A DNA stretch of 64,000 bases from a virus (IMGVR_UViG_3300035183_000733:276496-340495); one strand, 5' to 3'; shown: positions 10,265-49,195, counted from the stretch's first letter. A program made the numbers and translations. The notes: generated from the letters alone by a model not told the origin.

Positions 10265-10266
10265 CA

Positions 10267-11874
10267 ATGGCAGGATTTTTGGACAGGATCTCAGGAGGGT
10301 CACTAATATCAAACATACAGGCGAGGGTCAAAAATCTCGCGAACCTTGGTATTCGCTATGACGACAAGGTCATAAAGAACTCCATGGCCATCGGCGCAAC
10401 CGAGGGCAAGTTCCTTAAGCAGGGTGTTCTCGGCGACGAGGCGCTCATGTATTCGTTATCGATGGCCGACGTTGGCGCAAAGAAGTACGTGGCGTTCTTT
10501 GATAAGGACTACGCCGCGCGCAGGGAGTTCTTGCGCAAGTTCTCCATGAACGGAGAGATCCAGTGGATACTCGATACTATAACCGACGAGGCTGTTGTGC
10601 AGGACGAGCGTCAGTTTTTCTGCTATACGACACCGCTCTCTCTCGACGTCAACGACGAGGTGAAGGAGGCGTACGAAGAGAATTTCAAGAAGCTGTACAC
10701 GTACTTCCACTTCAACGACGACATCACGGCCTGGCAGTACTTCTACCAGCTGATGGTCGACGGGTTCCTCGCATTCGAGATAATATGGGACGACAATGCG
10801 GAAAAGATAATAGGTTTTAAAGAGCTCGATGCCATCACGCTGCGCCCTGGCGTCGAGAAGCAACCGGACGGCACGTTCAAGAACGTGTGGTACCAGAACG
10901 AGAACGACATACACCTCAAGCGCAAACTGTACGACTCGCAGGTCATATACATCGCGTACGCCAAGGGCAACTCAATATCGAGGGTATCGTACGTGGAGCG
11001 ACTTATACGCTCGTTCAACTTGCTCCGTATAATGGAGCACACCCGCGTTATATGGTCCGTGATGAACGCGTCGTTCCGTATGAAGATGGTTGTGCCTATC
11101 GGTTCCAAGTCGCCGCAGAAGGCTAAAGAATCGCTCGGAGAGTTGTTGACAATATACAAGGAGGACGTTAGGCTCGACCAGGATTCGGGTGAGCTGTTCA
11201 TAAACGGAAGGCCGAACATACCTTTCTACAAGAACTACATGTTCCCTAATAAGAACGGTGAGCAGGTGGACATTGAGACCATTGGCGGCACCGGTCCGGA
11301 ACTATCCGACACTGCGCAGCTCGATTACTTCTACAACAAATTAAAGCTTGACTCCAAAGTTCCGTTCGCTCGTTTCGACCGCGCAAACGGCGGGGGTCAG
11401 TTCGTTATAGGTTCGGAGGGCATGGACCGTGAGGAGGTCCGCTTCGCGAAATTCGTGAACAGGCTCAGGTCTATATTCCAGGAGATAATAGTTAAGCCGC
11501 TGTACCTGCAGATGGTGAAGGACTTCCCTGAGCTCGAGGACGACGAGATATTCAAGTCGCAGATAGGCATAAGGTTCAACAAGGACAACGTGTTCGAACG
11601 CCAGCGCGAGATGGACGTGCTCACTAAGACCGCCGAGTTCCTTGGTGCGATGAAGGAGATACAGACAATAAGGGGCGGAGAAGAGACGTCATACTTCCAT
11701 CCGAAGTTCTTGATCGAGCGCTACATGTTCTTGCCTCAGGCCGACCTTGACCTGAACGAGAGATACTGGAAGGAAGACAAGGACGCTGGCAATGCGCCTG
11801 GCGGTGGTAAAGAAGGTGAAGAAGGCGGTGGTGAGAAAGAAGAAGGCGGTGGCGGAGGGGGATTCAGCCTATAA
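10267..11874 (+). CDS. 20: Portal vertex protein (T4 gp20-like)
   Basis: A 535-aa portal protein. Typical elements are GEIQWILDTITDEAVV near residue 97, WQYFYQLMVDGFLAFEIIWD near 157, a central LIRSFNLLRIMEHTRVIWSVMNA helix and FARFDRANGGGQF with a downstream QIGIRFNKDN segment. T4 gp20 is 524 aa. It forms the dodecameric ring through which DNA is packaged. The final 35 residues are an unusual Gly/Glu low-complexity tail. It is separated by two bases from the upstream gene. Confidence 0.88.
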   Translation: MAGFLDRISGGSLISNIQARVKNLANLGIRYDDKVIKNSMAIGATEGKFLKQGVLGDEALMYSLSMADVGAKKYVAFFDKDYAARREFLRKFSMNGEIQWILDTITDEAVVQDERQFFCYTTPLSLDVNDEVKEAYEENFKKLYTYFHFNDDITAWQYFYQLMVDGFLAFEIIWDDNAEKIIGFKELDAITLRPGVEKQPDGTFKNVWYQNENDIHLKRKLYDSQVIYIAYAKGNSISRVSYVERLIRSFNLLRIMEHTRVIWSVMNASFRMKMVVPIGSKSPQKAKESLGELLTIYKEDVRLDQDSGELFINGRPNIPFYKNYMFPNKNGEQVDIETIGGTGPELSDTAQLDYFYNKLKLDSKVPFARFDRANGGGQFVIGSEGMDREEVRFAKFVNRLRSIFQEIIVKPLYLQMVKDFPELEDDEIFKSQIGIRFNKDNVFERQREMDVLTKTAEFLGAMKEIQTIRGGEETSYFHPKFLIERYMFLPQADLDLNERYWKEDKDAGNAPGGGKEGEEGGGEKEEGGGGGGFSL

Positions 11875-19709: not shown

Positions 19710-20186
19710 ATGAATACCGCAAAGATGCCCATAACACTACATTATAACCCGGCACCTAAGAAGGGAAAATTCGAGAAGATGTTCAAGCCATGGTGGCTGA
19801 TAGGGTCTACCGACTGCGACGTGTCAGAGTACTACGCCTGGTTCCTCCGGAAGCGTACCGGCATCGTATTACAGGAGCCGGCCTGGGGCGCACACGTTTC
19901 CGTAGTGAGAGGTGAGGTACCTCTGAATCAGGACGCCTGGAACAAACACCAGGGCAAGGTGGTGGAAGTCACGCTCGAGGTCGACGTCAGGACCAACGGT
20001 GAACACTGGTGGCTCAGAGCGACAAGCGAGGAGCTCAAAGACATACGAGAGGAACTTGGCCTGTACCGGCACGGCAAGCCGTTCGAGGACGGCGGTCACA
20101 TGGGTTTGCACCTGACCATCGGAAATCCGATACCGCTCCACAAGGAAATATCCATGTACTATCACAGGGTGTTTACGATGTTTTAG
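19710..20186 (+). CDS. Putative 2H-phosphoesterase-like protein, 158 aa
   Basis: Two HxS/T motifs spaced as in 2H phosphoesterases are visible: AHVSVVRGE near residues 61-69 and LHLTIGNP near 134-141. Such enzymes open cyclic phosphates in RNA or cyclic oligonucleotides. The intervening region is beta-rich. A second, clearer 2H protein lies at 46146. Substrate unknown; possible roles are RNA repair or defence-signal hydrolysis. Confidence 0.5.
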   Translation: MNTAKMPITLHYNPAPKKGKFEKMFKPWWLIGSTDCDVSEYYAWFLRKRTGIVLQEPAWGAHVSVVRGEVPLNQDAWNKHQGKVVEVTLEVDVRTNGEHWWLRATSEELKDIREELGLYRHGKPFEDGGHMGLHLTIGNPIPLHKEISMYYHRVFTMF

Positions 20187-23538: not shown

Positions 23539-24228
23539 ATGATCAGGATACCATACAACAAGTTCAGATACATTTATCCGCCGAGACCCGAGAACGCACT
23601 CGATTTCGGGCGACTAAAGGAATACGATACCGAGGAGTACGGCGCTCAGCCTAAGCTCGATGGCGATTGTACCCTGTTATTCACCAACGGCATCGAGTCG
23701 CACGTGTGGAACCGCCACAAAGAGAAGTTCACCAAGTGCAAGATCGACCTGACCAAACTGCATCGCGAGACCGTATCTGACGTGAAGGGCGCGCAGACAA
23801 ACAAATGGATGGTCCTCGTAGGCGAGTACATGGCGAAGTCCAAACGCAACCACATGGACAAAGTGTGGAACGACAAGTTCGTCATATTCGACATCATCGT
23901 TTACGATGGGTTCCAGCTAATAGGCACAACGTTCAGGGAGCGCATCGAGTTATTGGACCGCCTCTACGGCAAGGACGACATGGTGCTAACCCCTGACGGA
24001 GTTGACACGATGAAGTTCATGTATAACACAAACGTCGAGAATGCGTTCAGGGTGAAGACATTCTTCAACTGCTTCGAGCCGTTATGGAAGGACCTTGTAA
24101 AAATTGACATGATGGAAGGTCTTGTCCTCAAGCGTCTCGACGCTATACTCGAGAATGGCGTCACAGAACGCAACAACAGTGCCGGCCAATTGAAGTTCAG
24201 AAAACCGACTAAAAACTATCAATTTTAA
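23539..24228 (+). CDS. ATP-dependent nucleic acid ligase (RNA ligase-like)
   Basis: A covalent nucleotidyltransferase with motif I QPKLDGDCTL (Lys nucleophile near residue 39), motif III-like KFVIFDIIVYDG, motif IV MEGLVLKR and motif V LKFRKPTKNYQF at the very end. At 229 aa it is a minimal ligase without an OB fold. Similar small ligases in large phages are thought to seal RNA. Nearby genes (CCA-adding enzyme, NAD enzymes, 2H proteins) fit tRNA repair. RNA versus DNA substrate cannot be decided here. Confidence 0.78.
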   Translation: MIRIPYNKFRYIYPPRPENALDFGRLKEYDTEEYGAQPKLDGDCTLLFTNGIESHVWNRHKEKFTKCKIDLTKLHRETVSDVKGAQTNKWMVLVGEYMAKSKRNHMDKVWNDKFVIFDIIVYDGFQLIGTTFRERIELLDRLYGKDDMVLTPDGVDTMKFMYNTNVENAFRVKTFFNCFEPLWKDLVKIDMMEGLVLKRLDAILENGVTERNNSAGQLKFRKPTKNYQF

Positions 24229-24271
24229 TACCATCGTGGAGGCGAAAGGTACGAATATCAAAGCAAGCAAT

Positions 24272-24781
24272 ATGACAACAACTCAAACAACTCAAAAAAC
24301 TGCGAGCAAGCAGGACATCAAAGACGCTGCCATCGAACTGATGAAGCAGAACGGAACAACAACAAACCTTGACATCAAAAATTACTTACGCGCTAAGGAT
24401 TTCTGGGTATCGCAAAACGAGGTTAGCCAAACGATGAGCACCATCGCGAGCGAGGAAAATTGGGACCGCACATGGAACGGTACATACAACACCTGGTCAA
24501 TCCCGGCTCCCGCTACCACAGATGACAGCAATGACTCAGGAGATACAACCAATGTCATCGTCACGGCCAACCCGGCAAGCGCGGACAAAGCACTCGAGGA
24601 CGTAATCACGGCCATCGCGAGCAAGCTCGGAATCTACAAGCAGGCTATCAACAAGAACTCGAACCTTCAGGAGGACCTCGGGTTCATCGACCGTGACTAC
24701 TCGACCATCGGTCAGGTGTTCGGTAAAGACATCAAGGACTGCAAGACGGTTCAGGACATCGTAAACGCAATCAACGCTTAA
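24272..24781 (+). CDS. Winged-helix plus ACP-like domain protein, 169 aa
   Basis: The start ATG 24272 is preferred; a GTG at 24236 would add 12 residues. Residues ~10-75 look like a small winged helix (KDAAIELMKQNGTTTNLDIKNYLRAKDFWVSQNEVSQTM). After a Thr/Asp-rich linker, residues ~105-169 follow the acyl-carrier-protein pattern (ALEDVITAIASKLGI, LQEDLGFIDRDYSTIGQVFG). The DSL motif that carries the phosphopantetheine Ser is not present (FIDRD instead). Function unknown; it lies six bases upstream of the PARP gene. Confidence 0.5.
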   Translation: MTTTQTTQKTASKQDIKDAAIELMKQNGTTTNLDIKNYLRAKDFWVSQNEVSQTMSTIASEENWDRTWNGTYNTWSIPAPATTDDSNDSGDTTNVIVTANPASADKALEDVITAIASKLGIYKQAINKNSNLQEDLGFIDRDYSTIGQVFGKDIKDCKTVQDIVNAINA

Positions 24782-24786
24782 ATATC

Positions 24787-26070
24787 ATGGCAGCAGTTAC
24801 TACCGAAAAAGGATTCAAGGTCGTACGCTTAATCTGCGTGACCGGAGCGAACAACAACAAGTTTTACAACATGACTCAGATCTCGCCCGATGAGTTCGAG
24901 GCACACTGGGGGCGCGTAGACTCTACCGAGACACGCAAGAACTACCCAATGAGCGACTGGGACAGCATCTACCGCGACAAAACGAAGGCGAGCAAGAAAC
25001 CCAAGCCGTACACGGATGTGACCCACCTGTATGCGGAGGAATCCGTTAACGAGAGCGCCGGCACGACCAAGTCCATATTCAACAAGGACCGCAGTGCCGA
25101 GGTCAAGAAATTCGTGGAGATGCTGATGAAGTTCGCCAACCAATCGGTTGAGGCCAACTATACAGTGTCTGCGTCTAAAGTTACAAAGGCACAGGTTGAT
25201 CACGCGCAGCAGGTACTCGATGCTATCACCGGATTATTCAAGGTCGGCAACAAGGCGGACGAAATCAACGAGAAACTTATCGAGCTCTACCAGATCATCC
25301 CGAGAAAGATGAAGAAGGTGCAGGACCACTTGCTACCCGAAGGAACAAGTATTAAGGACAAAAAACAACTGCAGGAGTATATGAATCAAATCCTCCTTGT
25401 TGAGCAAGATGCCCTCGATGCCATGGCCGGTCAGGTTGCCATGAACGTGAAGGAGAAAGACGCGACGCCGGAGCAGAAGGAACACGATCTGTTGCACACT
25501 CTTGGATTGGAGCTCATGAACTGTCGTCCCGCGGAAATCGAAATGATCAAAAGGATGCTTGGCCCTAACGCGAAACAATTTGTACGCGCCTTCCGGGCGG
25601 TTAACAACCAAACGCAAGCCGGGTACGACAACTTCCTTAAGAAAGCGAAAAACAAGAAAACTGCGCTGTTGTGGCACGGCTCACGTAACGAGAACTGGTG
25701 GAGCATTTTCCAGCAGGGGCTGAAGATCCGTCCGTCAAACGCGGTGCTTACCGGTTCGATGTTCGGCTACGGTGTGTACTTCGCAGACAAGGCGCAGAAG
25801 TCTATCGGATACACATCTCTGAGCGGCTCGTATTGGGCACGAGGCGGTTCCAAAACTGCCATCCTTGCGCTTTACGAAATCCACCAGGGCAAGCAGAAGG
25901 AGATCCTTAACTGGAAATCCGAGCACAGCTCTCTCGATGAAGCTAAGATGAAGCGTGACGGATACGACTCTGTGTTCGCCAAGGGCGGCGCTGACCTCCG
26001 CAATAACGAATACATTGTCTACAACACCAACCAGAGCACGATTCAGTACCTGGTAGAAATACGAGACTAA
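24787..26070 (+). CDS. Poly(ADP-ribose) polymerase with WGR domain
   Basis: A 427-aa PARP of the bacterial/eukaryotic PARP1-2-3 layout. The WGR domain is at residues ~8-80 (FYNMTQISPDEFEAHWGRVD), a helical PARP regulatory domain at ~100-245, and the catalytic domain at ~280-427. The H-Y-E triad is intact: LLWHGSRN (His297), GYGVYFADKAQKS (Tyr331) and NNEYIVYN (Glu408). WGR domains sense broken nucleic acid ends, and the triad predicts transfer, probably polymerisation, of ADP-ribose from NAD+. The gene lies among NAD+ synthesis, ligase and NADAR genes. Whether it targets host or phage molecules is unknown. Confidence 0.88.
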   Translation: MAAVTTEKGFKVVRLICVTGANNNKFYNMTQISPDEFEAHWGRVDSTETRKNYPMSDWDSIYRDKTKASKKPKPYTDVTHLYAEESVNESAGTTKSIFNKDRSAEVKKFVEMLMKFANQSVEANYTVSASKVTKAQVDHAQQVLDAITGLFKVGNKADEINEKLIELYQIIPRKMKKVQDHLLPEGTSIKDKKQLQEYMNQILLVEQDALDAMAGQVAMNVKEKDATPEQKEHDLLHTLGLELMNCRPAEIEMIKRMLGPNAKQFVRAFRAVNNQTQAGYDNFLKKAKNKKTALLWHGSRNENWWSIFQQGLKIRPSNAVLTGSMFGYGVYFADKAQKSIGYTSLSGSYWARGGSKTAILALYEIHQGKQKEILNWKSEHSSLDEAKMKRDGYDSVFAKGGADLRNNEYIVYNTNQSTIQYLVEIRD

Positions 26071-26220
26071 TGGAGCTAACCGGTCTTCAACGAAGGCGAG
26101 GATTATCCAACCATGTGGTGGCATGCCGTATTTTTCCGTCAGGTAAACGGCCCGAACCGGCTGTCACACATACAAATAAAATTTGTAAAAGGCCGCAACT
26201 TTCCACCCATTTACGGATAA
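26070..26220 (+). pseudogene. Frameshifted small ORF downstream of the PARP gene
   Basis: The ATG at 26070 overlaps the PARP stop. After four codons a different frame reads FNEGEDYPTMWWHAVFFRQV and HIQIKFVKGRNFPPIYG to TAA 26218. One indel near 26085 restores it. Unknown family. Confidence 0.4.
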
Positions 26221-26249
26221 ATATGTTGAAATAAAAACACAACTAACCA

Positions 26250-26420
26250 ATGAAGAAATTTATCATCGTAGCCGCAATTGCATTAGGGTTTGCCTCGTGC
26301 AGCGGAGGAGCGGAAGAGGCTCCATCGACCACAGACAGCACTGCCGGCGTGGTCGACACCACAGCTTGCGTAGCACCAACTTGCTGTGCAGACAGCACTG
26401 CATGTGACACCGTCAAGTAA
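26250..26420 (+). CDS. Small secreted lipoprotein, 56 aa
   Basis: MKKFIIVAAIALGFASC is a signal peptide with a lipobox ending at Cys17, followed by SGGAEEAP. Acidic residues shortly after the lipidated Cys are typical of surface-exported lipoproteins in Bacteroidetes. The mature part is only about 40 residues, Thr/Ala/Asp-rich with four more Cys (including PTCC). Small phage lipoproteins in other systems block receptors and cause superinfection exclusion; that role is inference here. It ends at its own terminator. Confidence 0.75.
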   Translation: MKKFIIVAAIALGFASCSGGAEEAPSTTDSTAGVVDTTACVAPTCCADSTACDTVK

Positions 26421-26443
26421 TTGACGAAATCCTCACTGAGGAA

Positions 26444-26470
26444 AGGGACCCGATTTTGGGTCCCCTTTTC
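26444..26470 (+). terminator. Terminator after the lipoprotein gene
   Basis: GGGACCC / GGGTCCC stem with a GATTTT loop followed by CTTTTC. Confidence 0.8.
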
Positions 26471-26553
26471 ATTTATATTTGAATGTAGATAAAGAGCAAG
26501 AGCTAATCGAGAGATACAGGCATCTCCTGGGTTCAATATCAATAAAAAATTCG

Positions 26554-26561
26554 TATCTTTA
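26554..26561 (+). promoter_or_regulatory. Bacteroidetes-type -7 box TATCTTTA
   Basis: TATCTTTA lies only five bases before ATG 26566, so the transcript would be nearly leaderless. It decides the start of the CCA-adding enzyme gene, since the frame is open further upstream. Confidence 0.55.
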
Positions 26562-26565
26562 CATT

Positions 26566-27756
26566 ATGAATATTCCACAGGACATCAAGGACATCCACCA
26601 AATTATGACTGCCGCTGGTCACCAGCTCTTTGTTGTTGGGGGATGTGTCCGTGACCACCTGCTCGGGTCCAACATCAAGGACTACGACATGGCCACAGAC
26701 GCCATGCCAGAAAAAATATCCGAACTTCTCAAAGACAACTACCGCTTGGATTACACGGGCAAGAGTTTCGGGGTGATACGAGTTTATACCAAGGACTGTC
26801 CAAAGGGATACGAGATAGCGACTTTCCGCGAGGACGTCTCCGTCGGGCGTCAACCAGAGGTAAGGCTCGGCGCAACAATCGAAGAGAACGTGCTGCGGCG
26901 CGACTTCACCATCAATGCTTTGTTTTACGACCTCGACAAGTGCGAGATAATCGACCTTGTTGGCGGCGTTGAAGACGTAGAGAACAGAGTATTGCGCTGT
27001 GTAGGCAACCCGGTGGACCGGTTCAACGAGGATAGATTGCGCGTGCTGAGAGCCATCAGATTTGCGCTTCGCTTTGGTATGAAGATACACGAGGATACCG
27101 CCGAAGCCATTATGAAATGCCGGGTACTCGAAGGACCAGACAAAGATGGTAATACAGTGCCTATTGTTCGCGAGCGCATAAATGAAGAAATGTTCAAGGC
27201 GTTCGAACAACTCAACTCACCGTTGATGTACTTCACATTGTTGCAGGAATATGGTCTACTCTATCAAGTCATGCCCGGGTATTACTATCCGGAGCAATGG
27301 ATTAACACAAGAACTCCGGAGGTACTTGTAGCTTCGCTGTTCCACGCATCTGATACAAGCCGACAGATGCTCACCCGTAAACTGAAGGAGGAGATAAAAT
27401 TACCGAATAAGTTTGTGGACGGTGTGGAGCTATTGCTCGATGCTGCCAAGTATGTTGAGCATGCTACCGACGAGCTTCATACGTTCGCGTTTACGATAGC
27501 TAAACGCAGAGAACGCCTCGAGCTGGCGGACGCGGATCTTACCGTGTTTTTACATTGGGTAATGTCCAAAGAGGAGAAGCGCCGTAATGCGAACGCGTTG
27601 GCACTTAGCGTTTACAAACTCAGTGTGACCGGACAATCTTTGTTAGATGAAGGTATGAAGGAAGGACCGGAGATGGGCGAAGAGCAGAGACGCCGCGAAG
27701 CTATAAAGTTTAACCAACTGCTGCAGCAATGTGACAGGGTAGTGAGAGATAAATGA
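26566..27756 (+). CDS. cca: CCA tRNA nucleotidyltransferase / poly(A) polymerase family
   Basis: A class II nucleotidyltransferase: LFVVGGCVRDHLLG with IKDYDMATDA (the metal-binding DxD) at residues ~17-45, then FREDVSVGRQPEV, RRDFTINAL and the ERNEDRLRVLRAIRFA-type tRNA-binding helix (FNEDRLRVLRAIRFALRF). The start 26566 follows a promoter box directly; an upstream in-frame extension is not supported. The length of 396 aa is normal. It would add or repair CCA ends of tRNAs, useful for a phage with many tRNA genes, most of which lack encoded CCA. Confidence 0.88.
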   Translation: MNIPQDIKDIHQIMTAAGHQLFVVGGCVRDHLLGSNIKDYDMATDAMPEKISELLKDNYRLDYTGKSFGVIRVYTKDCPKGYEIATFREDVSVGRQPEVRLGATIEENVLRRDFTINALFYDLDKCEIIDLVGGVEDVENRVLRCVGNPVDRFNEDRLRVLRAIRFALRFGMKIHEDTAEAIMKCRVLEGPDKDGNTVPIVRERINEEMFKAFEQLNSPLMYFTLLQEYGLLYQVMPGYYYPEQWINTRTPEVLVASLFHASDTSRQMLTRKLKEEIKLPNKFVDGVELLLDAAKYVEHATDELHTFAFTIAKRRERLELADADLTVFLHWVMSKEEKRRNANALALSVYKLSVTGQSLLDEGMKEGPEMGEEQRRREAIKFNQLLQQCDRVVRDK

Positions 27757-27845
27757 GATTCAGAATAGGACCAATACTTTTGTTCATCGCCATATTATTG
27801 GTGGGCTTCATGATTGCGGACATCGTGACGGTGCTCGCGCAATAA
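27753..27845 (+). CDS. Single-helix membrane miniprotein, 30 aa
   Basis: ATG 27753 overlaps the preceding stop (ATGA). The product is almost wholly one membrane helix (ILLFIAILLVGFMIADIVTVL). Phage miniproteins of this type are often inhibitors of host membrane processes; no function can be named. Confidence 0.45.
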   Translation: MRFRIGPILLFIAILLVGFMIADIVTVLAQ

Positions 27846-27889
27846 CGAGAAACGACACATGACAAAGGTCACACAAGACAGTTTGAACT

Positions 27890-29073
27890 ATGGAAATATC
27901 AAAGCAAATAGATAAGCTCGCCGAAGACATTCACCTCAGCGACATTTACGGGTGCTTCGTGGAGATGGGATGCGGCGTTGCCGTAGTCAACGCACTGATG
28001 AGCATTGCCGGTGCGACCGCGACAGTTTACGTGTCCGAGTGTCCATATTCTCGCGAGTACCAGCACGACAACTACCATAACGAAGGAACCAGGGCGGTGT
28101 CCAAAGAGAGCGTGTCTAAAATTTTGGAGTGGAGATGGAAGGATATGATCGGTCTCAACGGCGTGAATGCCGCTTACATCGCATCATTCCAACTTGGTGG
28201 AGACGGCAAGTCGACACACGGCTGGATCGCGTACGCATACAAGTCGAAGACGAGATACTACCATATATCAATACACGAGAGCCTCACAAGAAAGCAGTAC
28301 CTCGAGAGGATAGCACTGTGCGGTCTGCTCATCATAGCCGCCAGGAACGAATACGTTCCGACCGGTGCGTGCGTGGACATCGTCGACGGATTCGATGACA
28401 ATCAGGCCGAAATGTTCGACATGGTGAGACACACGAGACAAGACGACTTCCTGTGCATCAGAGACGGCAAGTTCTACCGTCTGGAGGATTTTTTCAGGGA
28501 GGAGAGGTCCATCCTGTTATTCAAGGGAAGCTTCAACCCTATACACAACGGGCACGTGGAAATAGCAGAGGCTGTTAAATCCGAATACAACAGCAAGCCA
28601 AAACTCATGATAAGTGCCGAGATATACGGCAAGGGCACGCTGTCTTCACAGGAGCTCAAGAGCAGAATAGAAGACCTCAACAAGCTCGGCTACGATGTGG
28701 TCGTATCACGCAGTGGATTTTTCACATAAAGTACCTTCGTCAGAAGTTCAGCCAACCCATCGTGTTCGCGGTTGGCGTAGATACGCTTGTGCGTATATTC
28801 CAGAGCTCGTACCCGGTACTGAAGGACGACGGAACGCCTAATCACCCGTATCACAGGGAGGTGGAGACGTTCGACAAGGACTTCGACAATGTGAAACTTT
28901 TTGTTGTGAAGAGGGACGGGTTCGAGATACCCTATGTACTGACGCAGCTCGAATCGGTGATGTCGCACATTGAGGTGAGAAGCATAGAGCACAGCAACGT
29001 CAGTTCCACGCAGGTGAGGGCCGGCGCTGTCGAACACATACCCGAGGTTCTGAGGGACAAATATAAGAAGTGA
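27890..29073 (+). pseudogene. PncC-like / nucleotidylyltransferase (NMN adenylyltransferase-like) fusion, frameshifted
   Basis: Residues ~10-180 resemble the CinA/PncC (NMN deamidase) family: GCGVAVVNALMSIAGATATVYVSECPYSREY, with SKESVSKILEWRWK. From ~205 a nucleotidylyltransferase begins with LLFKGSFNPIHNGHVEIA, the HxGH signature. The frame stops at 28727, but the next frame continues HIKYLRQKFSQPIVFAVGVDTL and ends with the ISTxxR-type motif NVSSTQVRAG. Adding a single T to the T5 run at about 28719 restores one protein. Next to NadV this would be the NMN adenylyltransferase step of NAD+ synthesis. It may be a read error, real decay or programmed slippage. Confidence 0.6.
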
Positions 29074-29085
29074 TGTATTACGCGC

Positions 29086-29364
29086 ATGTCTATAACTATA
29101 GTGATAACAGCTTTGGCGTTCTTGGCATTGGGAATAGGCTTCTATCTGTCGTTACGGAGAGACGCCTATCGGAGCAGGCAGAGGTTCGAGCCGAGAGCGA
29201 GTGCAAAAACTTTATTAAAATCACACGAGCAAAAACCGGCGGCTTTCAAGTTGAAGTCCTACGACGAGACAACAGATCTGGAAGATTTACTCGACAAGGC
29301 AGTGAGAGATGAGGACTACGAACTGGCCGCGGCAATAAGAGACGAACTAAATAAAAGGAAATAA
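29086..29364 (+). CDS. Membrane-anchored protein with UVR-like motif, 92 aa
   Basis: One N-terminal membrane helix (ITIVITALAFLALGIGFYLSL), a polar linker, and a C-terminal segment LEDLLDKAVRDEDYELAAAIRDELNKRK typical of the UVR interaction motif of UvrB/UvrC and ClpC-type proteins. It suggests a membrane adaptor. Its stop overlaps the next start by one base. The 58673 gene product ends in the same motif. Confidence 0.55.
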   Translation: MSITIVITALAFLALGIGFYLSLRRDAYRSRQRFEPRASAKTLLKSHEQKPAAFKLKSYDETTDLEDLLDKAVRDEDYELAAAIRDELNKRK

Positions 29365-29984
29365 TGGAACAAACCACCGAAATTGAAAGAAGCCAGATTT
29401 GGAAACAGATCCACGAGGTTGTTAACAAGATACCTCGAAAAAACGTCGAGGGTGATGCTATGGATGCCGCAAGCGCCGCAACAGAGATCGAGCAATTGCT
29501 GTTCCAGAAAAAAACAACCGAATACACGGTGCGGTACCCCATTGCATTCCACACCGTGGATGTCGCAGTGGTTAAGACGGACCACGACCACAATATAACA
29601 CACGTATTGCTCATCCAGAAACCACACGAGGTATCGCTCGGCATCTGGAGATTCCCTGGTGGATTCATCGACCCGACCGACAAGAGTGCGGAGGAAGCTG
29701 GTGCACGTGAGGTCAAGGAGGAGACCGGCATGGACGTGTTCGAAATGAACTACATCGGATCTTCCAACATCGACGACCCGAGGTACAGGGATACACCACA
29801 CGGAATCATAACATCATTCTTTTATGCCATCCATAAGGACGGAGAGGCTGGACAAGGATTCGATGACGTGGCGGTGACAAAGTGGTTCGACGTTAAGGAA
29901 CTTTACTCGCCTGAGTTTAAGATCAACCCTACACACGCGCCTCTGTTCGCTATGTTCAAAGAGTTGGTAGACCAAAATCAATAA
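29364..29984 (+). CDS. Nudix hydrolase, ADP-ribose-pyrophosphatase/NrtR type
   Basis: The Nudix box GGFIDPTDKSAEEAGAREVKEETGM is complete except for a short insertion, as in ADP-ribose pyrophosphatases that read GGFxDPxDxSxEEAA. The N-terminal ~70 residues form a helical extension. The length is 206 aa. It would hydrolyse ADP-ribose or a related nucleoside diphosphate. It sits directly between the adenylyltransferase-like gene and nadV, so NAD+/ADP-ribose metabolism is the most likely pathway. Confidence 0.82.
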   Translation: MEQTTEIERSQIWKQIHEVVNKIPRKNVEGDAMDAASAATEIEQLLFQKKTTEYTVRYPIAFHTVDVAVVKTDHDHNITHVLLIQKPHEVSLGIWRFPGGFIDPTDKSAEEAGAREVKEETGMDVFEMNYIGSSNIDDPRYRDTPHGIITSFFYAIHKDGEAGQGFDDVAVTKWFDVKELYSPEFKINPTHAPLFAMFKELVDQNQ

Positions 29985-30007
29985 TATAAACCTAAATAAA
30001 AACCAAA

Positions 30008-31696
30008 ATGAAGAAACATCATGGCGATTACACGGATGCCGAGCTGCAAAACATGAGTGTGACAGAGCTCGTAGCCATCATCCAAAATTTACAAGATGAA
30101 GACAATTTCATCATCATGTCGGACAGTTACAAAATGACGCACCACCTTCTCGTACCTGATGGAATCGAGGAGACCTATTCGGGTCTTGAGTCGCGCGGCG
30201 GGGATATGCCTTACACTATCCTTTGCTTATTGCAGTACTATCTGAAAAAATACTTTGCCGGTGTTCGCATTACCCCAGCAAAAATCGAGGAAGCTCGTAA
30301 GAAGAACATCGCACACTTCGGCTTCGACTGTTTTAACGACAAGATGTGGTACCACATCTGGGAGAATCACGGAGGAAGATTACCTCTCGAGATCAAGGCA
30401 GTTCCGGAAGGTACTCCGGTTGCGGTGAAGAACATCATCATGACTATCCGCAATACAGATAAGAAGTGCTCACCACTCACCAACATCAGCGAAACCACGT
30501 TGATGAAATTGTGGGCGCCTAACACTGTCGCGACGTACGCTCGCCTGGTGAAGGAACTTATCGTTAAGTATCACGCATTGTCGTCCGACGCGCCACAGTG
30601 GCTGATCGACTTCATGCACCACGACTTCGGATACCGTGGAGTTAGCTCGGAAGAGTCCGCTCGCATCCTTGGTACCGCGGCGCTTATCTCGTTCAAAGGA
30701 ACCGACACATTAGGTGCTTGTGTTCTTGCCGAGAAGTACTACGGTTGTCCAATGGCCGGTTTCTCTGTTATCGCGTCGGAACACTCAGTGCATTGTTCAT
30801 ACGATGGCGATGCGAGCGATCCTGAGGGATACCGCACCATCATCAACAAGGTCAAGACCGACCCATTGGTGCTAAATGCCAACCCTGCAAGTGGGGTGAT
30901 CATCTTATCTCTCGTATCGGATACCAAGAATATCTATAACGTGTGTCACAGAATCCTTCCTGGCCTTAAAGACGAGTTCATCGGATGGACCAATAATCAT
31001 GGTATCCCTATCAAGATTGTCGTACGTCCTGATTCCGGAGATGCCGAGATGGTTCTATTCGGATTGTTCAACGATTCAAAGGTGGACCCGCACTACGTGT
31101 CGCAAGTTGTGATGAAGGTGTCTAAACACATGGACATTGACATTGTCGAAGCGCAGAGCCTCGTGGATAAAGGAATTTTCAATATCCTGTTCGACCACTT
31201 TGGATTCACCACAAACTCGAAAGGTTTCAGAGTATTCCACCCTCAGATCGGTGTGCTCCAAGGAGATGGTGTGAATTACAAATTGATGTCCCTACTTTAC
31301 GAACGTATGATCTCCGTGAAAATCGACATCATGAATCTGGTGTTCGGTTCCGGTGGAAAATATCTACAGGCACACGACCGCGACGAGCAGAAGTACGCTA
31401 TCAAGGCTACGCATGTAATTATCAACGGAGTCGGCGTGAACATCGAGAAGAACCCTGTGACCGATGCGGTTAAGAAATCAAAAACTGGATACTGTAAACT
31501 TGTTCGTGCCGAAAGAAAGCCTGGAATGCAGGCGTGGGAAGCATTCAAGACGGTGCAGTCAACAGATCCAGATTTCGACAAATACGAGGACGTATTGGTG
31601 CCGGTATTCCGAGATGGAGAGATCCTTGTGGAGTACACGTTCGACCAGGTTCGTAAGAACGCTGAAATCGAGATGGATGTTGAGATAACAGCCTAA
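30008..31696 (+). CDS. nadV: Nicotinamide phosphoribosyltransferase (NAMPT/NadV)
   Basis: Highly characteristic motifs: SDSYKMTHHLLVPDGIEETYSGLESRGG near residues 38-65, DFGYRGVSS, SFKGTDTLGA, VIASEHS, VVRPDSGD and GVLQGDGVNY. It makes NMN from nicotinamide and PRPP. At 562 aa it is slightly longer than the ~490 aa norm because of N- and C-terminal extensions. Nicotinamide is the by-product of NAD+ consumption by the PARP, so the pair can cycle. The gene has its own terminator. Confidence 0.95.
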   Translation: MKKHHGDYTDAELQNMSVTELVAIIQNLQDEDNFIIMSDSYKMTHHLLVPDGIEETYSGLESRGGDMPYTILCLLQYYLKKYFAGVRITPAKIEEARKKNIAHFGFDCFNDKMWYHIWENHGGRLPLEIKAVPEGTPVAVKNIIMTIRNTDKKCSPLTNISETTLMKLWAPNTVATYARLVKELIVKYHALSSDAPQWLIDFMHHDFGYRGVSSEESARILGTAALISFKGTDTLGACVLAEKYYGCPMAGFSVIASEHSVHCSYDGDASDPEGYRTIINKVKTDPLVLNANPASGVIILSLVSDTKNIYNVCHRILPGLKDEFIGWTNNHGIPIKIVVRPDSGDAEMVLFGLFNDSKVDPHYVSQVVMKVSKHMDIDIVEAQSLVDKGIFNILFDHFGFTTNSKGFRVFHPQIGVLQGDGVNYKLMSLLYERMISVKIDIMNLVFGSGGKYLQAHDRDEQKYAIKATHVIINGVGVNIEKNPVTDAVKKSKTGYCKLVRAERKPGMQAWEAFKTVQSTDPDFDKYEDVLVPVFRDGEILVEYTFDQVRKNAEIEMDVEITA

Positions 31697-31712
31697 CCTA
31701 AATAAATCAAAA

Positions 31713-31757
31713 CCCGGAACAACCCATAATTTTTTTATGCAGGTTCCGGGATTTTGT
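31713..31757 (+). terminator. Terminator after nadV
   Basis: CCCGGAAC / GTTCCGGG, an 8-bp stem with a loop of about 22 bases, followed by ATTTTGTTT. Confidence 0.65.
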
Positions 31758-31768
31758 TTCAATAAAGA

Positions 31769-32273
31769 TTGCGATGCCAGATAAACCCATACCCAGGCAA
31801 CCTGAGACACATCAAGGTCGAAGAGACTGATGAAATGCGCAGGAAGAAATTGGACGAGGCTATCGAAAGCTTCGGCCGTGACTTGAAGGGTCACAGCTTA
31901 TCGTCGCTCGACAGCGAAGGGGTGTTCTTATTCATCAACGACGATTTCCCAATCATAGTCACGGCCAGCAGGGCGGAACCTGTCGGCGAACCAAGACGAC
32001 GAGAAGCGGTACCCAATAGTTCATGCGATACTGTCGGTTAGGAACCTGTCAGATGGCCGGCGCGAGTTCTACGTGAAGTTCGAGTCAATAGTGTCCATTC
32101 CACCGGGTGAGGGATTGGAATATAAATGCCCTCACATCGACACAGTTAGGATGGAACTGATTAAATTCGACAGATGGAGCTACGAAATCGACGGCGAGTT
32201 CTATACGGTATCCGACATGCGCGGTACCATGCTGAATAAAAAATACGCGTTACTGCCAGACCTGATAAAATGA
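31769..32273 (+). pseudogene. Frameshifted hypothetical protein
   Basis: The first frame reads RHIKVEETDEMRRKKLDEAIESF and LSSLDSEGVFLFINDDFPIIVTA, then fails; another frame picks up at LSANQDDEKRYPIVHAILSVRNL and continues to TGA 32271. At least one indel near 31980, perhaps another near the start where an ATG at 31772 is out of frame. Unknown family. Its end overlaps the Nudix gene start. Confidence 0.45.
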
Positions 32274-33142
32274 TTTATACTTGCGGAATATTCATAATAG
32301 ACACAAGAGACCGGGTTCTTGTGTGCCACATCACCAACCAGCCGATGGAGGGACGGACGTGGTCCATTCCGAAGGGGCTGCCGGATGACGGTGAGTCGTA
32401 TCCAGAAGCTGCATGTAGAGAAGCCCTGGAGGAGACCGGGATAAGGATAGATCCTCTCGATGTCATATTCCTCGAGAATTCTCCGTACTTCTCAAAATCT
32501 ATGAACGGCAAGAAGACCCTCGTGCCGTTCCTCGCGGTCATCGAAGAATCCGGTGATGACATCAAATGCGAGTGCACGTCCATGTTCACCAACCCGAAGG
32601 GCGTGCAGCAACCGGAGGTCGATGACTTTAAGTGGGTATCGTTCGAGGATGCAGCAGCAATAATTCATGAATCGCAGATGGTCAAGCTCGAGGAGGCAAA
32701 ATGCATCTACGATAAGTATAAGTCTGACCCGCAGATTCCGCCCGACCTGACGCCAGAGGCGGAAGCCGAATGGCGTCGCAATTATCCAATACCCATAGAA
32801 GATTTCGGCAAGGACTGGGTTGCGCAGTTCCACTTGCTGCTACTCGGGTACAAGATGGGCATTAACACGAATATATCGCTCAGGCAGGTACTAAACACAA
32901 CCCGTCAGATCCTCATCAACTCCAGTGGATTCGATCCGCTGGTTAGATCGAGAACTATAGTTGTGATAGAGGGAGACAACGGGGAGCAATGGGAGGACTA
33001 CCACAAGTGGGTGGACAGCATTTACGAGGTCGATACCGCAAGACTGCAGATGAACTCGACAAAGAGTGGAAGGCTTTTATCGTTGAACTCATGGAACAGA
33101 ACGGCATCACCGTTAATCCAAACTGGATCAATACCATCATGA
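32270..33142 (+). CDS. Nudix hydrolase with helical C-terminal domain (C-terminus frameshifted)
   Basis: The N-terminal ~140 residues are a Nudix domain: TWSIPKGLPDDGESYPEAACREALEETGIR is a correct Gx5Ex7REUxEExGU box. A helical extension follows. Past about 33030 the present frame is unconvincing, while other frames continue ADELDKEWKAFIVELMEQNGI and then NGFATWLIKTYNARK to TGA 33273, so two small indels are likely and the real C-terminus is about 33275. The type of Nudix (diadenosine, RNA cap or ADP-ribose) cannot be told. Confidence 0.72.
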   Translation: MIYTCGIFIIDTRDRVLVCHITNQPMEGRTWSIPKGLPDDGESYPEAACREALEETGIRIDPLDVIFLENSPYFSKSMNGKKTLVPFLAVIEESGDDIKCECTSMFTNPKGVQQPEVDDFKWVSFEDAAAIIHESQMVKLEEAKCIYDKYKSDPQIPPDLTPEAEAEWRRNYPIPIEDFGKDWVAQFHLLLLGYKMGINTNISLRQVLNTTRQILINSSGFDPLVRSRTIVVIEGDNGEQWEDYHKWVDSIYEVDTARLQMNSTKSGRLLSLNSWNRTASPLIQTGSIPS

Positions 33143-33271
33143 TGGATCGCCCTCCAAAACCCATGCGCAAAAACATTCCAAGCTACTCAAGGATAACGGT
33201 TTCGCCACGTGGCTCATTAAGACGTACAATGCGAGGAAATTAAATCACCAGACAATACACCCCACTCAGAT

Positions 33272-33592
33272 ATGAAATACTTAGGAGAGACGCTTGTGGA
33301 GCAGAAGGACACTCCATACAAGGATTATGCCAAGGCTGAGTTTGCCCTACTGTTCATCATGAAATACGGCGGGATAGACGGAGCGCACCACAAGGACTGG
33401 GTCCTCGACCAGGTCGCGAGGATACTCAACGATTCTCCGGTGACCATATTCCTGGCAAAATGGGATAACGGGCAAGAGGAGTACAGATTCCGCGTCGGCG
33501 ATTCTTCGCGTTACCTCAATTGGGTCGCCGAATGCAAGAACGGGGAGGACGGACCGGACACGTACAGCTACGAGGAAGGAATTGCGCCCTGA
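33272..33592 (+). CDS. Hypothetical protein, 106 aa
   Basis: Soluble with an N-terminal helix (KDYAKAEFALLFIMKYGGIDGAHHKDWVLDQVARIL) and a small beta sheet (YRFRVGDSSRYLNWV). The pattern is like phage proteins of unknown function seen in many large phages. It follows the Nudix gene, overlapping its restored C-terminus. Confidence 0.55.
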   Translation: MKYLGETLVEQKDTPYKDYAKAEFALLFIMKYGGIDGAHHKDWVLDQVARILNDSPVTIFLAKWDNGQEEYRFRVGDSSRYLNWVAECKNGEDGPDTYSYEEGIAP

Positions 33593-33652
33593 TGTTTTTC
33601 ATCTCGTAAAAAATAGTATACTTACCTGAATAGAAAAACTAACAGGTAAGCG

Positions 33653-34285
33653 ATGGAAGAAATAAAGATACAGCAGACTGTTGCGGTCCTGGTGGACGGC
33701 AACAACATGGACAAGAGCGCTAACACCTTTGGTGAGTTCATGATGATGGATTACGACCGGTTGATACCGCGTCTTATAGGTAGGCGCAGTCTGTCAAAGT
33801 TCTTCTACCTCAGGGAGGGAAAGAAGATCTCGAAGAAGCTCGCCGAGAGATTACACAAGAATTTTTACGGAATAGTCAAGCCATGCTACAAGAGTGCAGA
33901 TGTGCCGCTAACTATAGAGGCGGTCCAGCTCGTTGACAAGGTTGACACCATAATAATCCTATCGGGTGATTCCGATTACATGGAACTCGTCAAGTATTTG
34001 AGCGCTCGTGGTTGTAGGACCGAGATTGCCGCATTCAGGCACAGCGCATCGACGGCCCTCATAGAGATGGCAGACTTCTACCACGAGATAACGGTGGATG
34101 ACTGCTTCACTGTGGAGAAACACGGCAAGGATGAGCACGTGGAGTTTGCGCCGGAAATACACGGTGACCTCGGGTTGGCTCCGAAGAAGAAACATGTCAT
34201 CCTTCCGAAGGACACCAGGGTCGTTGACGTGACAAACCCGGCGTTAACCGAGAAGATACGGTTGTACGACGAGACCGATCGATAA
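33653..34285 (+). CDS. NYN-domain ribonuclease (LabA/PIN-like)
   Basis: VAVLVDGNNMDKS at residues ~10-22, a conserved Asp region KVDTIIILSGDSDYMELVKYL near 95-115 and AFRHSASTALIEMADFY near 125 are the NYN/PIN core: three acidic metal-binding positions. These domains cut RNA, including tRNAs. After the stop at 34283 the adjacent frame keeps plausible coding (DNAYVIILDNGNETKRR) to about 34365, so the C-terminus may be frameshifted. It is upstream of the NADAR gene. Confidence 0.78.
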   Translation: MEEIKIQQTVAVLVDGNNMDKSANTFGEFMMMDYDRLIPRLIGRRSLSKFFYLREGKKISKKLAERLHKNFYGIVKPCYKSADVPLTIEAVQLVDKVDTIIILSGDSDYMELVKYLSARGCRTEIAAFRHSASTALIEMADFYHEITVDDCFTVEKHGKDEHVEFAPEIHGDLGLAPKKKHVILPKDTRVVDVTNPALTEKIRLYDETDR

Positions 34286-34394
34286 TGCCTATGTGATTAT
34301 TCTTGACAACGGCAACGAGACCAAGCGGAGGAGGAATAACTTTAAAACCGAAGAAGAAAATGTCAATAAAAATTAAGGAGGACAGACGGACAGG

Positions 34395-34901
34395 ATGATC
34401 GACAAGAGCTACATAGTGCACGACGACTATAACGTAAAGGGCTTCGACGGGAAGTACAGGTTCCTGTCCAATTTCTTCATGACACCGGTTTATTTCGAGG
34501 GCATCAAGTACCCGTCGAGCGAACACGCATATCAGGCCGCTAAGACAGAGGACCAGCCCACCAGAATGACTATGTTCCTGAACTGTACGGCTGGTGAAGC
34601 AAAGAAGAACGGCAGGATCGTAACCATTCGCGATGACTGGTCCAGGATAAAGTTCGACGTGATGAGCGTCATCGTGTTCGAAAAGTTCTACCGTAATATC
34701 GAATTGCGTCGTGAGTTGCTTGCAACTGGCAAGCGCCACCTCGAGGAGACAAACCACTGGAACGATACCTATTGGGGTGTGTGCAATGGCAAAGGAGAAA
34801 ATAACCTGGGCATAGTACTCATGGGCGTGAGGGCGTACTGGGGTTCCAAGTACCCGGAGCTGCTCGGCAAACCAGTGGCAAACATAAAACCTTTATTTTA
34901 A
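34395..34901 (+). CDS. NADAR family (YbiA-like) ADP-ribose glycosidase
   Basis: Typical NADAR signature: YRFLSNFFMTPVYFEGIKYPSSEHAYQAAKTED near residues 20-55, then a central helical part, and HWNDTYWGVCNGKGENNLGIVLM near 120-145. The length is 168 aa. Members remove ADP-ribose attached to guanine in DNA or RNA or cleave related N-glycosides. In a phage that carries two ADP-ribosyltransferases this could protect its own nucleic acid or counter host DarT-like defence. The substrate here is inference. Confidence 0.87.
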   Translation: MIDKSYIVHDDYNVKGFDGKYRFLSNFFMTPVYFEGIKYPSSEHAYQAAKTEDQPTRMTMFLNCTAGEAKKNGRIVTIRDDWSRIKFDVMSVIVFEKFYRNIELRRELLATGKRHLEETNHWNDTYWGVCNGKGENNLGIVLMGVRAYWGSKYPELLGKPVANIKPLF

Positions 34902-41577: not shown

Positions 41578-41844
41578 ATGGATATAGAGATGGTTTACAT
41601 ACAGCACTGCGACCTGCCGGAGTGCGCGCTCGGGACTGCCGAGTGGGACTGCCCGAGTTGTGGAGGACACAACATCGAGTACGACGATTTCTTTTACGAG
41701 GAGTACGAAAAGGAACACAAGGGTGAGCTTTGCTGCGATTGGTGCCGGGCAGAATTTGAAGTTGAGAAAAAAGAATACGGTATTTACAATATTAAAAAGG
41801 AGGTAAACAATGAGCAATTGGAAAGTAATAAAGACAAAGATTGA
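41578..41844 (+). CDS. Zinc-ribbon protein, 88 aa
   Basis: Two CxxC pairs, CPSCG near residue 30 and CCDWC near 57, make a zinc ribbon flanked by acidic stretches. Possibly nucleic-acid or protein binding. It overlaps the RNA ligase gene by 35 bases. Confidence 0.6.
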   Translation: MDIEMVYIQHCDLPECALGTAEWDCPSCGGHNIEYDDFFYEEYEKEHKGELCCDWCRAEFEVEKKEYGIYNIKKEVNNEQLESNKDKD

Positions 41845-42889
41845 GGTGTTCGATCACCCGGATGCGGCGAAACTGCAAATCGGAAAGATTGGCACATACC
41901 AGGTAGTTGTGCAGAAGGGACTGTACAACGGTGGTGAGGACGTGGTATTCGCTCCCGAGAAGTCCATCCTGAACGGTGAGCTTGAGAAGGAGTACAAGAA
42001 CTACCTGCACGGTCCTGATAAGAACAGGGTTGGTTCTATTCGTTTGAGAGGTGAGCTATCTTGTGGTATCATCATACCTAACGAGCTTGTGTTCGCGCAG
42101 TGCGGTAAGCACATAAGCGAGCTGCCTAACGACGAGGACCTGTCGGAGATTCTTGGTATAACCAAGTACGTGCCGAGGGTTCCTTCCGAGATGGAGGGCG
42201 TGGCGGTTCCTATCGAGTACGACAACTTCTCGATAAAGCACGACGTCGAACAGTTCGGTGTTTACGCTGCTGACTTCGTGGACGGGGAGCGTGTCGTGAT
42301 AACGGAGAAGCTGCACGGGTCGCAGCTCGTGGCATACATCTCTGTGCACAACGACAACCAGGTTAAGGCAAAGTGGGTGTCTACCAAGAACTACAACGCC
42401 GAGGGCTTGTGCCTTGTGGAGAGCGATACCAACTTCTACTGGATGGCGGTTAACGATATAGGGTTATTCTCCAACATACTGGACTTGCTGCCCAATCTGT
42501 CCGCCCTCGCCGGGCTCAGCTCCGGCGATGAGATGGTGGTGCAGGTGTTCGGTGAGGGTATTCCTTGTCAGGCCATGAAGTATGGTTTCGTCAACCCGAC
42601 TATGAAGATATTCGGTGTGACGATAAACGGAAAGACATATCCTTACGATCAGCTTCCGGAGTACTTCAGAAAGAATTGGGTTCCTGTTCTGTACGACGGA
42701 CCTTACGAGAACGTGCCGGAGCTCAAGAAGCTTGCGCTCGGTAACGAGAAGGTGTCCGGCCAGGAGCTGCACATTAAGGAGGGCATTGTAATAACTCCTT
42801 ACGAGGTGCGCAGGGCCAAGGACGGGACATGGCTGAAAGTTAAGGTGATTAACCCGAAATACAAGGAGACAGGCGAAGAATTTTCGTAA
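41810..42889 (+). CDS. RNA ligase with N-terminal OB domain (Rnl5/DraRnl-like)
   Basis: Residues ~8-110 form an EMAP/tRNA-binding-like OB fold (EVFDHPDAAKLQIGKIGTYQVVVQKGLY). The ligase core begins with motif I ITEKLHGSQLV (Lys nucleophile near 167), with motif III-like QVFGEGIPCQ, motif IV KEGIVITP and motif V WLKVKVINPKYKE. N-terminal OB plus ligase is the architecture of Deinococcus RNA ligase, which seals nicks in RNA. The length is 359 aa. It probably repairs tRNAs together with the other RNA enzymes in the window. Confidence 0.85.
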   Translation: MSNWKVIKTKIEVFDHPDAAKLQIGKIGTYQVVVQKGLYNGGEDVVFAPEKSILNGELEKEYKNYLHGPDKNRVGSIRLRGELSCGIIIPNELVFAQCGKHISELPNDEDLSEILGITKYVPRVPSEMEGVAVPIEYDNFSIKHDVEQFGVYAADFVDGERVVITEKLHGSQLVAYISVHNDNQVKAKWVSTKNYNAEGLCLVESDTNFYWMAVNDIGLFSNILDLLPNLSALAGLSSGDEMVVQVFGEGIPCQAMKYGFVNPTMKIFGVTINGKTYPYDQLPEYFRKNWVPVLYDGPYENVPELKKLALGNEKVSGQELHIKEGIVITPYEVRRAKDGTWLKVKVINPKYKETGEEFS

Positions 42890-47461: not shown

Positions 47462-47576
47462 AATACCTTGCGAAGTGCGGAACCACCGTGCATGTCGGGA
47501 TCGCCTTCCAGAGCCACGGAGACGATGCCATGCACTTGTGCCTGAGATGTCTATATGTAATTACTGTAAAAAATGA
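47442..47576 (+). pseudogene. Small zinc-ribbon ORF, probably frameshifted
   Basis: ATG 47442 reads MMNTSDKIPCEV, while the next frame reads KCGTTVHVGIAFQSHGDD and MHLCLRCLYV. A CxxCG...CLRC zinc ribbon would be restored by one indel near 47480. It overlaps both neighbours (ATGA at its end). Confidence 0.4.
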
Positions 47577-48322
47577 AGCACCTGAGGGACATAAACGAGT
47601 TCAGGAGTTTCGATAATTCTAAGGTATCGAAGAACGGACAACTATTGACCGTGTATCACGGCACCAATTCCAAGTTCGACAAGTTCGACGCCTCATATAT
47701 GGGGCAGACCGACGAGGGTTATTATGGACGAGGGTTCTATTTCACCATTGACAAGGACTATGCCCGCGAGTACGGATCACGCGTCATCGAGGCAAACCTC
47801 GATGTTAAAAACCCGTTCTATCTTCGCACATGGTCGATGCTTGGCAGCTACGAGGAGATTTACCTAAGAGAGGATCTATCCAAACTCAAAGGCGTGCCGT
47901 CGTACTTCAAGCCGAACAAGGAGATTCCCGAAGGATTTGAACTGACCGTACGCGATACAAACCACGACGAAGTGGTCGAGATAGCAGTTGTTCCCAAAAA
48001 AGAACTGTGGGGCACTGACGACGAGGTGTACGGTCCGAGCATCTATCTGAAAAAGGAAGATGCTGCCAAGAAGGACATACTTGAAGGGTACAAGGAGCTT
48101 GCTGTGGTGCGATTCAACGATATGAGGGCCGACGTTGAATTTGACGGTGGCCTCGCCAACTGGGTTATCCAAAAGCTCGGCCGCTGGAACTTTCACGAAT
48201 TACTACAGAAGAACGGATACGACGGGATCTTCGTCGTCGGCAAGGACGGAGACAAGACGCCGATAGACGAGGTGTCCGAGATAGTCGTATGGGACCCATC
48301 CCAAATACAAATAATAAAGTGA
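47573..48322 (+). CDS. ADP-ribosyltransferase (ART-PolyVal type) with leader-like N-terminus
   Basis: LTVYHGTNSKFDKFDASYMGQ near residues 23-43, then YYGRGFYFTIDKDYAREYGSRVIEANLDVKNPFYL near 50-84, and YDGIFVVGKDG with SEIVVWDPSQIQII at the end. This is the YHGT...GxGFYF...A..Y...NPF...F.PSQI signature of ART-PolyVal proteins, found in phages and mobile elements. It is predicted to move ADP-ribose from NAD+ to a target. It begins MKHLRDINEFRSFD, like the short leaders of other genes here, and lies among packaging genes, so it may be packaged in the head like T4 Alt. The latter is inference. Confidence 0.75.
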   Translation: MKHLRDINEFRSFDNSKVSKNGQLLTVYHGTNSKFDKFDASYMGQTDEGYYGRGFYFTIDKDYAREYGSRVIEANLDVKNPFYLRTWSMLGSYEEIYLREDLSKLKGVPSYFKPNKEIPEGFELTVRDTNHDEVVEIAVVPKKELWGTDDEVYGPSIYLKKEDAAKKDILEGYKELAVVRFNDMRADVEFDGGLANWVIQKLGRWNFHELLQKNGYDGIFVVGKDGDKTPIDEVSEIVVWDPSQIQIIK

Positions 48323-49192: not shown

Positions 49193-49195
49193 TTC

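Follow-up and report, generated by a model that had tools for sequence, protein, structure and literature searches.

Phage networks of NAD+ and ADP-ribose metabolism, including NADAR neighbourhoods with NadM and NadV, have already been described (PMC9503650). More than 48% of medium and jumbo phages encode a NADAR, and 33% of jumbo phages a NadV (PMC9503650). The NADARs tested take ADP-ribose off guanine, and in the toxin-antitoxin pairs DarT-NADAR and YarT-YbiA a NADAR and an ADP-ribosyltransferase (ART) share one genome (PMC11543638, PMC11125620). Another route of NAD+ rebuilding in phages is NARP1, composed of Adps and Namat, with an enzyme of NAMPT fold (PMC12774641). PARPs have been documented in a few jumbo phages, that of XacN1 being named (PMC7824862). 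The locus described here gathers a PARP, NAD+ salvage genes and a NADAR in one block. Its genes are real and ordinary in kind, their arrangement is unusual, and one of them is broken in this copy.

Genomic Context and Gene Content

The window, i.e., the whole stretch of 64,000 nucleotides analysed, belongs to a virus record of 373,759 bases (~374 kb), here called G000. The 20 tRNA genes of the window, together with the T4-like portal, the terminase and the contractile tail sheath, identify G000 as a jumbo myovirus-like, T4-like phage. Its sister phage, G002 (482 kb), has a portal 73% identical to that of G000, and the portal of a further relative, LR756500, is 50% identical. The large terminase subunit (50172-54023, 1283 aa) harbors intein-type Hint and LAGLIDADG homing-endonuclease domains, perhaps as two inteins, and is directly preceded by another terminase-like ORF (49193-50206, 337 aa).

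The block genes form a single plus-strand run spanning 11 kb. The run opens with an ATP-dependent polynucleotide ligase (23539-24228, 229 aa, PF01068 9e-8) reduced to its nucleotidyltransferase domain, with orthologues in G002 (61%) and in phage G001 (58%), in which it lies 1.7 kb from the PARP. The initial annotation gave this position, 23539, as the start of the block; the PARP begins at 24787. The next gene (24236-24781) encodes a 181-aa protein of unassigned function, whose N-terminal part is conserved near PARP in several phages (tblastn matches in L003, L004, L006, L007 and L019) and whose C-terminus weakly resembles an acyl carrier protein (NCBIfam ACP 1.5e-4, under the cut-off). It is followed by the PARP1/2-like ADP-ribosyltransferase (24787-26070, PF00644 4e-26), by a tRNA nucleotidyltransferase of the CCA-adding/poly(A) polymerase family (26479-27756, PF01743 2e-32, PHROG tRNA nucleotidyltransferase 1e-62), and by the interrupted adenylyltransferase discussed below (27890-29073). 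Nudix hydrolase 1 (29364-29984, PF00293 4e-17, NF003787 4e-11), the nicotinamide phosphoribosyltransferase NAMPT/NadV (30008-31696), Nudix hydrolase 2 (32270-33142, PF00293 2e-16), an NYN-domain nuclease (33653-34285, PF01936 9e-21) and the NADAR hydrolase (34395-34901, PF08719 1e-22) complete the run. Judged from sequence profiles, these Pfam matches are far beyond chance. The gene kinds listed initially are thus real, both Nudix proteins included, but that list left the ligase, the CCA/poly(A) polymerase family enzyme and the NYN nuclease unnamed. The ART-PolyVal protein noted at 47.6 kb was also recovered (47570-48322, plus strand, PF18760 9e-17). Apart from the PARP, no further ART was recognised in the window. 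The ART-PolyVal gene stands 13 kb off the block and is at most a candidate member of the cluster.

Two flanking genes deserve mention. A 158-aa protein (19710-20186) with HVSV and HLTI motifs looks 2H-phosphoesterase-like by eye, without Pfam support, and has a G002 orthologue (54%). An RNA ligase (41807-42889, PF09414 1e-11) comes directly after the tRNA genes.

The PARP1/2-Like ADP-Ribosyltransferase

PARP1/2 enzymes modify proteins and nucleic-acid ends. The phage PARP is predicted to be composed of a WGR domain (residues about 11-66), a helical regulatory domain (about 104-240) and an ART domain (264-425). Its catalytic residues H297, Y331 and E408 are invariant in an alignment of 14 phage sequences, and its best sequence matches among solved structures are human PARP2 and PARP1 (5e-18). 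M325 is also kept; it falls at what is presumably the position of PARP1 M890, which is no more than suggestive of poly- rather than mono-ADP-ribosylation. In the G000 protein alone, the WGR match is under the Pfam cut-off (0.009) and that of the helical domain (PARP_reg) is weak (0.001). The WGR domain is nevertheless assigned because it passes the cut-off in 15 of 19 relatives and because the predicted fold agrees.

An AlphaFold2 model based on the 14 phage sequences (pLDDT 82.5) is matched best in the PDB by PARP1 and PARP2 structures with bound DNA double-strand breaks (E 3e-20 to 1e-18), aligning over 481-499 columns to WGR-HD-ART chains. The TM-scores of 0.5-0.6 indicate that the domains are placed differently. 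In the model, the layout is therefore WGR-helical-ART, nearest to that of human PARP1/2 in complex with broken DNA, and activation by breaks would be expected from this likeness. The WGR-PARP with an intact H-Y-E triad claimed at the outset thus stands, its residues and fold being intact, with the WGR domain recognised through relatives and fold. Tandem PARP genes are seen in one 290-kb phage record (L011:8119-9315 and 10001-11206).

NAD+ Salvage Genes and the Interrupted Adenylyltransferase

The NAMPT was described as complete, and it is: both NAMPT_N (2e-24) and NAPRTase (7e-36) domains are found, the protein exceeds the curated NCBIfam cut-off (422.6 versus 405 bits), matches human NAMPT along its length and displays the active-site motifs SEHS, GTDT, RPDSG and FGSGG. 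NAMPT occurs in 1,911 of 50,697 phage records. Nudix 1 most resembles the Nudix portion of bifunctional NMN adenylyltransferase/Nudix proteins (NF003787).

The adenylyltransferase is frameshifted near 28.72 kb in the G000 copy and intact in G002. Of the HIGH and ISSTxxR motifs looked for in NadD-type enzymes, the G000 copy shows GSFNPIHNGH and the similar VSSTQVR, in separate frames. The first ORF (27890-28729) encodes an N-terminal domain and the start of the NadD-like nucleotidyltransferase, which ends after 28 of the 133 profile positions. What follows, VSSTQVR included, is in a different frame (28579-29073); this remainder (28732-29073, NCBIfam NadD 5e-5, profile positions 112-173) has no start of its own at the break. 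The break itself spans 28704-28735: the codon-usage signal shifts frame at 28704, a premature stop occupies 28727-28729, the next start is at 28762, and the intact G002 protein aligns by tblastn as two pieces in two frames, split at 28732-28735. A programmed frameshift was considered but is less likely: the run of five T inside the break (28718-28722) does not make up a classical slippery heptamer in the frame required, and the sister gene is intact. Given that intact gene, a real one-base change or an assembly error is the likelier cause. Codon usage reveals a weaker second frame switch at 33054, inside Nudix 2, which hints at small indel errors in the assembly; the C-terminal extension of Nudix 2 may thereby also be frameshifted. 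Another switch lies at about 45793, and both in-gene positions are possible small assembly indels.

In G002, the adenylyltransferase domain matches PF01467 over its full length (1e-11) and TIGR00482 below the cut-off of that model (2e-13). The G002 protein is thus predicted to be a complete NadD-like domain behind an N-terminal domain of ~200 residues. The fusion proposed initially, of a GSFNPIHNGH nucleotidylyltransferase with a PncC-like domain, holds for its HIGH-type half, albeit frameshifted. Its PncC-like half is not supported: Pfam CinA (PF02464) gave no match even at E ≤ 5, an hhalign comparison with nine CinA/PncC sequences returned a probability of 1.5% (the query profile of two sequences having low power), and the PncC dyad Ser31/Lys63 (PMC5384747) is replaced by Met/Thr and Gln in a forced alignment. 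The predicted structure of the fusion protein (pLDDT 45, from three alignment rows) is uninformative. Beyond G002, no relative of the fusion was detected in 50,697 phage records (E 1e-3), plasmids, genome_contigs or viral_contigs; in the records searched, it appears to be a rare protein restricted to two phages.

Outside the window, G000 encodes on the minus strand a 642-aa fusion of an RNA_ligase domain with an NMN-adenylyltransferase-like HIGH domain (G000:138113-140041, L059/L060), with orthologues in G002 (58%) and LR756500 (39%), and no further phage match over most of its length. This second NMNAT-like protein might supply the missing adenylylation step.

NADAR and the Removal of ADP-Ribose

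The NADAR aligns with E. coli YbiA (2b3w, 7e-16), with its SSEHAYQAAK and LEE segments lining up. As initially called, a NADAR protein is present in the block, and its catalytic residues are kept: the SEH...K motif provides Glu and Lys, the last strand a further Glu, and the roles of these residues have been documented (PMC11543638). It is accordingly classified by sequence as a probable YbiA-family member, as distinct from the histidine type reported for phage gp30.3 (PMC11543638, PMC11125620). No match to macrodomain, ADP-ribosylglycohydrolase or microbial PARG was found in the G000 genome, which leaves NADAR as the sole recognised ADP-ribose hydrolase among those searched. NADAR is a poor fit as an eraser of PARP1/2-like products, since the NADARs tested act on guanine-linked ADP-ribose. 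The proposal that it protects the phage from its own PARP is therefore not upheld, the PARP matching PARP1/2 best. No DarT was seen among the Pfam matches of the scanned block proteins. The NADAR (34395-34901) and the ART-PolyVal (47570-48322) weakly match two candidate-system models of PADLOC, PDC-M42C and PDC-M42A, and may represent a distant ART/NADAR pair.

Conservation and Linkage across Phages

The order PARP, tRNA nucleotidyltransferase, adenylyltransferase, Nudix, NAMPT is the same in G002, followed there by NYN, Nudix 2 and a NADAR. The PARP-to-NAMPT order was found again only in this phage. G000 and G002, however, are collinear over long stretches, with 206 reciprocal best matches, and have closely related portals, so that their common gene order can be inherited, and it was set aside as evidence for a unit. 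The true G002 orthologue of the G000 NADAR is located at 403.9 kb, 86 kb away, and the NADAR adjoining the G002 NAMPT (317.4 kb) is of a different subfamily, the one also found beside NAMPT in XacN1 and RAS14.

PARP, NAMPT and NADAR co-occur in G002, XacN1 and RAS14; LR756500 possesses a PARP and gives no NAMPT_N match. In XacN1, NAMPT, NADAR and a NadM-Nudix protein lie within 6 kb, and the PARP is 183 kb off; in RAS14, NAMPT and NADAR are 3 kb apart, and the PARP is 170 kb from NAMPT. The full combination had been thought undescribed; XacN1 already encodes these gene kinds, although with the PARP far away. New here are the PARP and tRNA nucleotidyltransferase inside a salvage/NADAR block, the NadD-like fusion, and a linkage pattern parting PARP from salvage, for which an earlier description in a subscription paper is possible.

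This pattern was quantified post hoc on few records selected for carrying PARP, several of them fragments: of the ten records with both PARP and a tRNA nucleotidyltransferase, six have them no more than 10 kb apart (expected 1.7, p 0.0006); at this distance the count for PARP and a ligase is 7/10 (expected 2.9, p 0.002), compared with 2/7 for NAMPT (expected 0.6, p 0.11) and 1/7 for NADAR. NAMPT and NADAR are within 5 kb of each other in four of the seven phages with both (expected 0.35). When each lineage is reduced to a single record and those shorter than 80 kb are dropped, the counts become 4/8 for PARP-tRNA nucleotidyltransferase (expected 0.75) and 4/6 for PARP-ligase (expected 0.84); for NAMPT-NADAR at 5 kb, the lineage-collapsed count is 2/5 (expected 0.25, p 0.02). 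PARP is thus near ligase and tRNA nucleotidyltransferase genes more often than chance, as is NAMPT near NADAR, whereas PARP is not near NAMPT. The ligases concerned belong to different families in different phages. Cellulophaga phi4:1 has its tRNA nucleotidyltransferase, PARP and DNA ligase genes almost side by side. Single-protein scans of viral_contigs with NAMPT and NADAR gave little. In LR756511 (180000-190000, L096), an ADP-ribosylglycohydrolase, a ligase and a PARP lie within 7 kb on one strand, possibly a writer-eraser-ligase set.

Interpretation of the Locus

The genes may have been gathered for joint work in a single NAD+/ADP-ribose economy, in which PARP would consume NAD+ in modifying targets of the host or the phage, NAMPT and NMNAT would refill it, and NADAR and Nudix proteins would clear the products. 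Their confinement to one strand within 11 kb, the similar order in G002, the presence of PARP, NAMPT and NADAR in the XacN1 and RAS14 genomes, and the finding that a NADAR adjoins NAMPT in both sisters despite their different subfamilies all agree with it. Against one functional unit, however, PARP and salvage share a block only in the two sister phages, whose genomes are collinear to a large extent; LR756500 has a PARP and gives no NAMPT_N match, the distance exceeds 170 kb in XacN1 and RAS14, and NADAR chemistry does not suit the reversal of PARP1/2 products (PMC11543638, PMC11125620). This reading is rather unlikely, i.e., possible but not favoured, and a salvage/NADAR cluster with a break-response PARP fits the evidence better. 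At the other extreme, genes frequent in jumbo phages could simply be side by side in this clade. The high background frequencies of NADAR and NadV (PMC9503650) and the genome-wide synteny of the sisters, which accounts for their shared order, speak for such a chance neighbourhood, but the closeness of NAMPT and NADAR remains above chance after lineages are collapsed, as does that of PARP with ligase and tRNA nucleotidyltransferase, which makes it unlikely. It is still less probable, to the point of being improbable, that the region serves RNA/tRNA repair, with PARP replacing KptA at RNA ends among the 2H-like phosphoesterase, ligase, tRNA nucleotidyltransferase, NYN nuclease, RNA ligase, 20 tRNA genes and NADAR. 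Such genes do surround the block (2H-like at 19710, RNA ligase at 41807), G000 gives no KptA match, and NAD+-dependent RNA repair has been proposed in phages (PMC9503650); yet the WGR and helical domains are typical of DNA-break PARPs, LR756500, G008 and G010 carry both PARP and KptA, so that PARP is no replacement there, and the 2H call is based on two motifs only.

The locus is probably a phage NAD+-salvage/NADAR cluster of known type, lying beside a break-sensing PARP with its ligase and CCA enzyme. NAMPT would convert nicotinamide and PRPP into NMN, and the HIGH adenylyltransferase would convert NMN into NAD+, in what is predicted to be the canonical nicotinamide-to-NAD+ salvage. The rebuilding of NAD+ by these two enzymes, as initially put forward, keeps its route beside NADAR, but the NMN-adenylylating gene is frameshifted, so that in the G000 copy the host or the second NMNAT-like protein would have to carry out the last step. 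The Nudix proteins would trim NAD+ and ADP-ribose compounds, NADAR would take ADP-ribose off bases or small molecules, and the set as a whole may counter NAD+-depleting or ADP-ribosylating host defence. The PARP, ligase and tRNA nucleotidyltransferase would constitute a break-response set, the PARP being switched on at a nucleic-acid break and the nicotinamide it releases being available for recycling by the adjoining NAMPT. Co-transcription of the whole plus-strand run is possible.

A broader version, in which several phage lineages share a eukaryote-like break-response module (a break-sensing WGR-HD-ART PARP, a ligase and a tRNA/poly(A)-type nucleotidyltransferase, sometimes with an ADP-ribosylglycohydrolase eraser as in LR756511), here beside a salvage set recycling the released nicotinamide, is doubtful. 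If these three enzymes act together, phages would use PARP-guided break repair, otherwise typically eukaryotic, in small and testable versions, and the cluster would be a clear case of an NAD+-consuming set beside its own NAD+ supply. Taken as no more than an ordinary variant, the locus still indicates that NADAR tends to travel with NAMPT, one NADAR subfamily being replaced by another; its NadD-like fusion protein, seen in two phages only, is a rare addition.

Comparison with Known Systems

The closest systems are phage NAD+ salvage sets combining NadV with NadM or NadR, as in KVP40 and XacN1 (PMC9503650, PMC7824862), in which NAMPT, a HIGH adenylyltransferase, Nudix and NADAR are close to each other, as in G000. 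Here, in contrast, the adenylyltransferase is NadD-like, carries an extra N-terminal domain, is separate from Nudix and is frameshifted; the NADAR is of the YbiA type, and the block also includes a PARP and a tRNA nucleotidyltransferase. G000 resembles NARP1 (PMC12774641) in NAD+ rebuilding by a NAMPT-fold enzyme, but this enzyme fits canonical NAMPT, its NMN still needs an adenylyltransferase, and no Adps was recognised among the annotated block genes. As with DarT-NADAR and YarT-YbiA (PMC11543638, PMC11125620), a NADAR and an ADP-ribosyltransferase coexist in the genome; the ART-PolyVal gene, however, is 13 kb off, and the PARP represents another ART class. Finally, PARP1/2-type ARTs, including those of Cellulophaga phi4:1 and XacN1 (BBA65562) (PMC7824862), have in common with the G000 PARP the WGR-helical-ART layout and the H-Y-E triad, with identities of 33% and 26%, respectively. 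The G000 enzyme differs from PARP1/2-type ARTs in having no zinc fingers and in adjoining NAD+ salvage genes.
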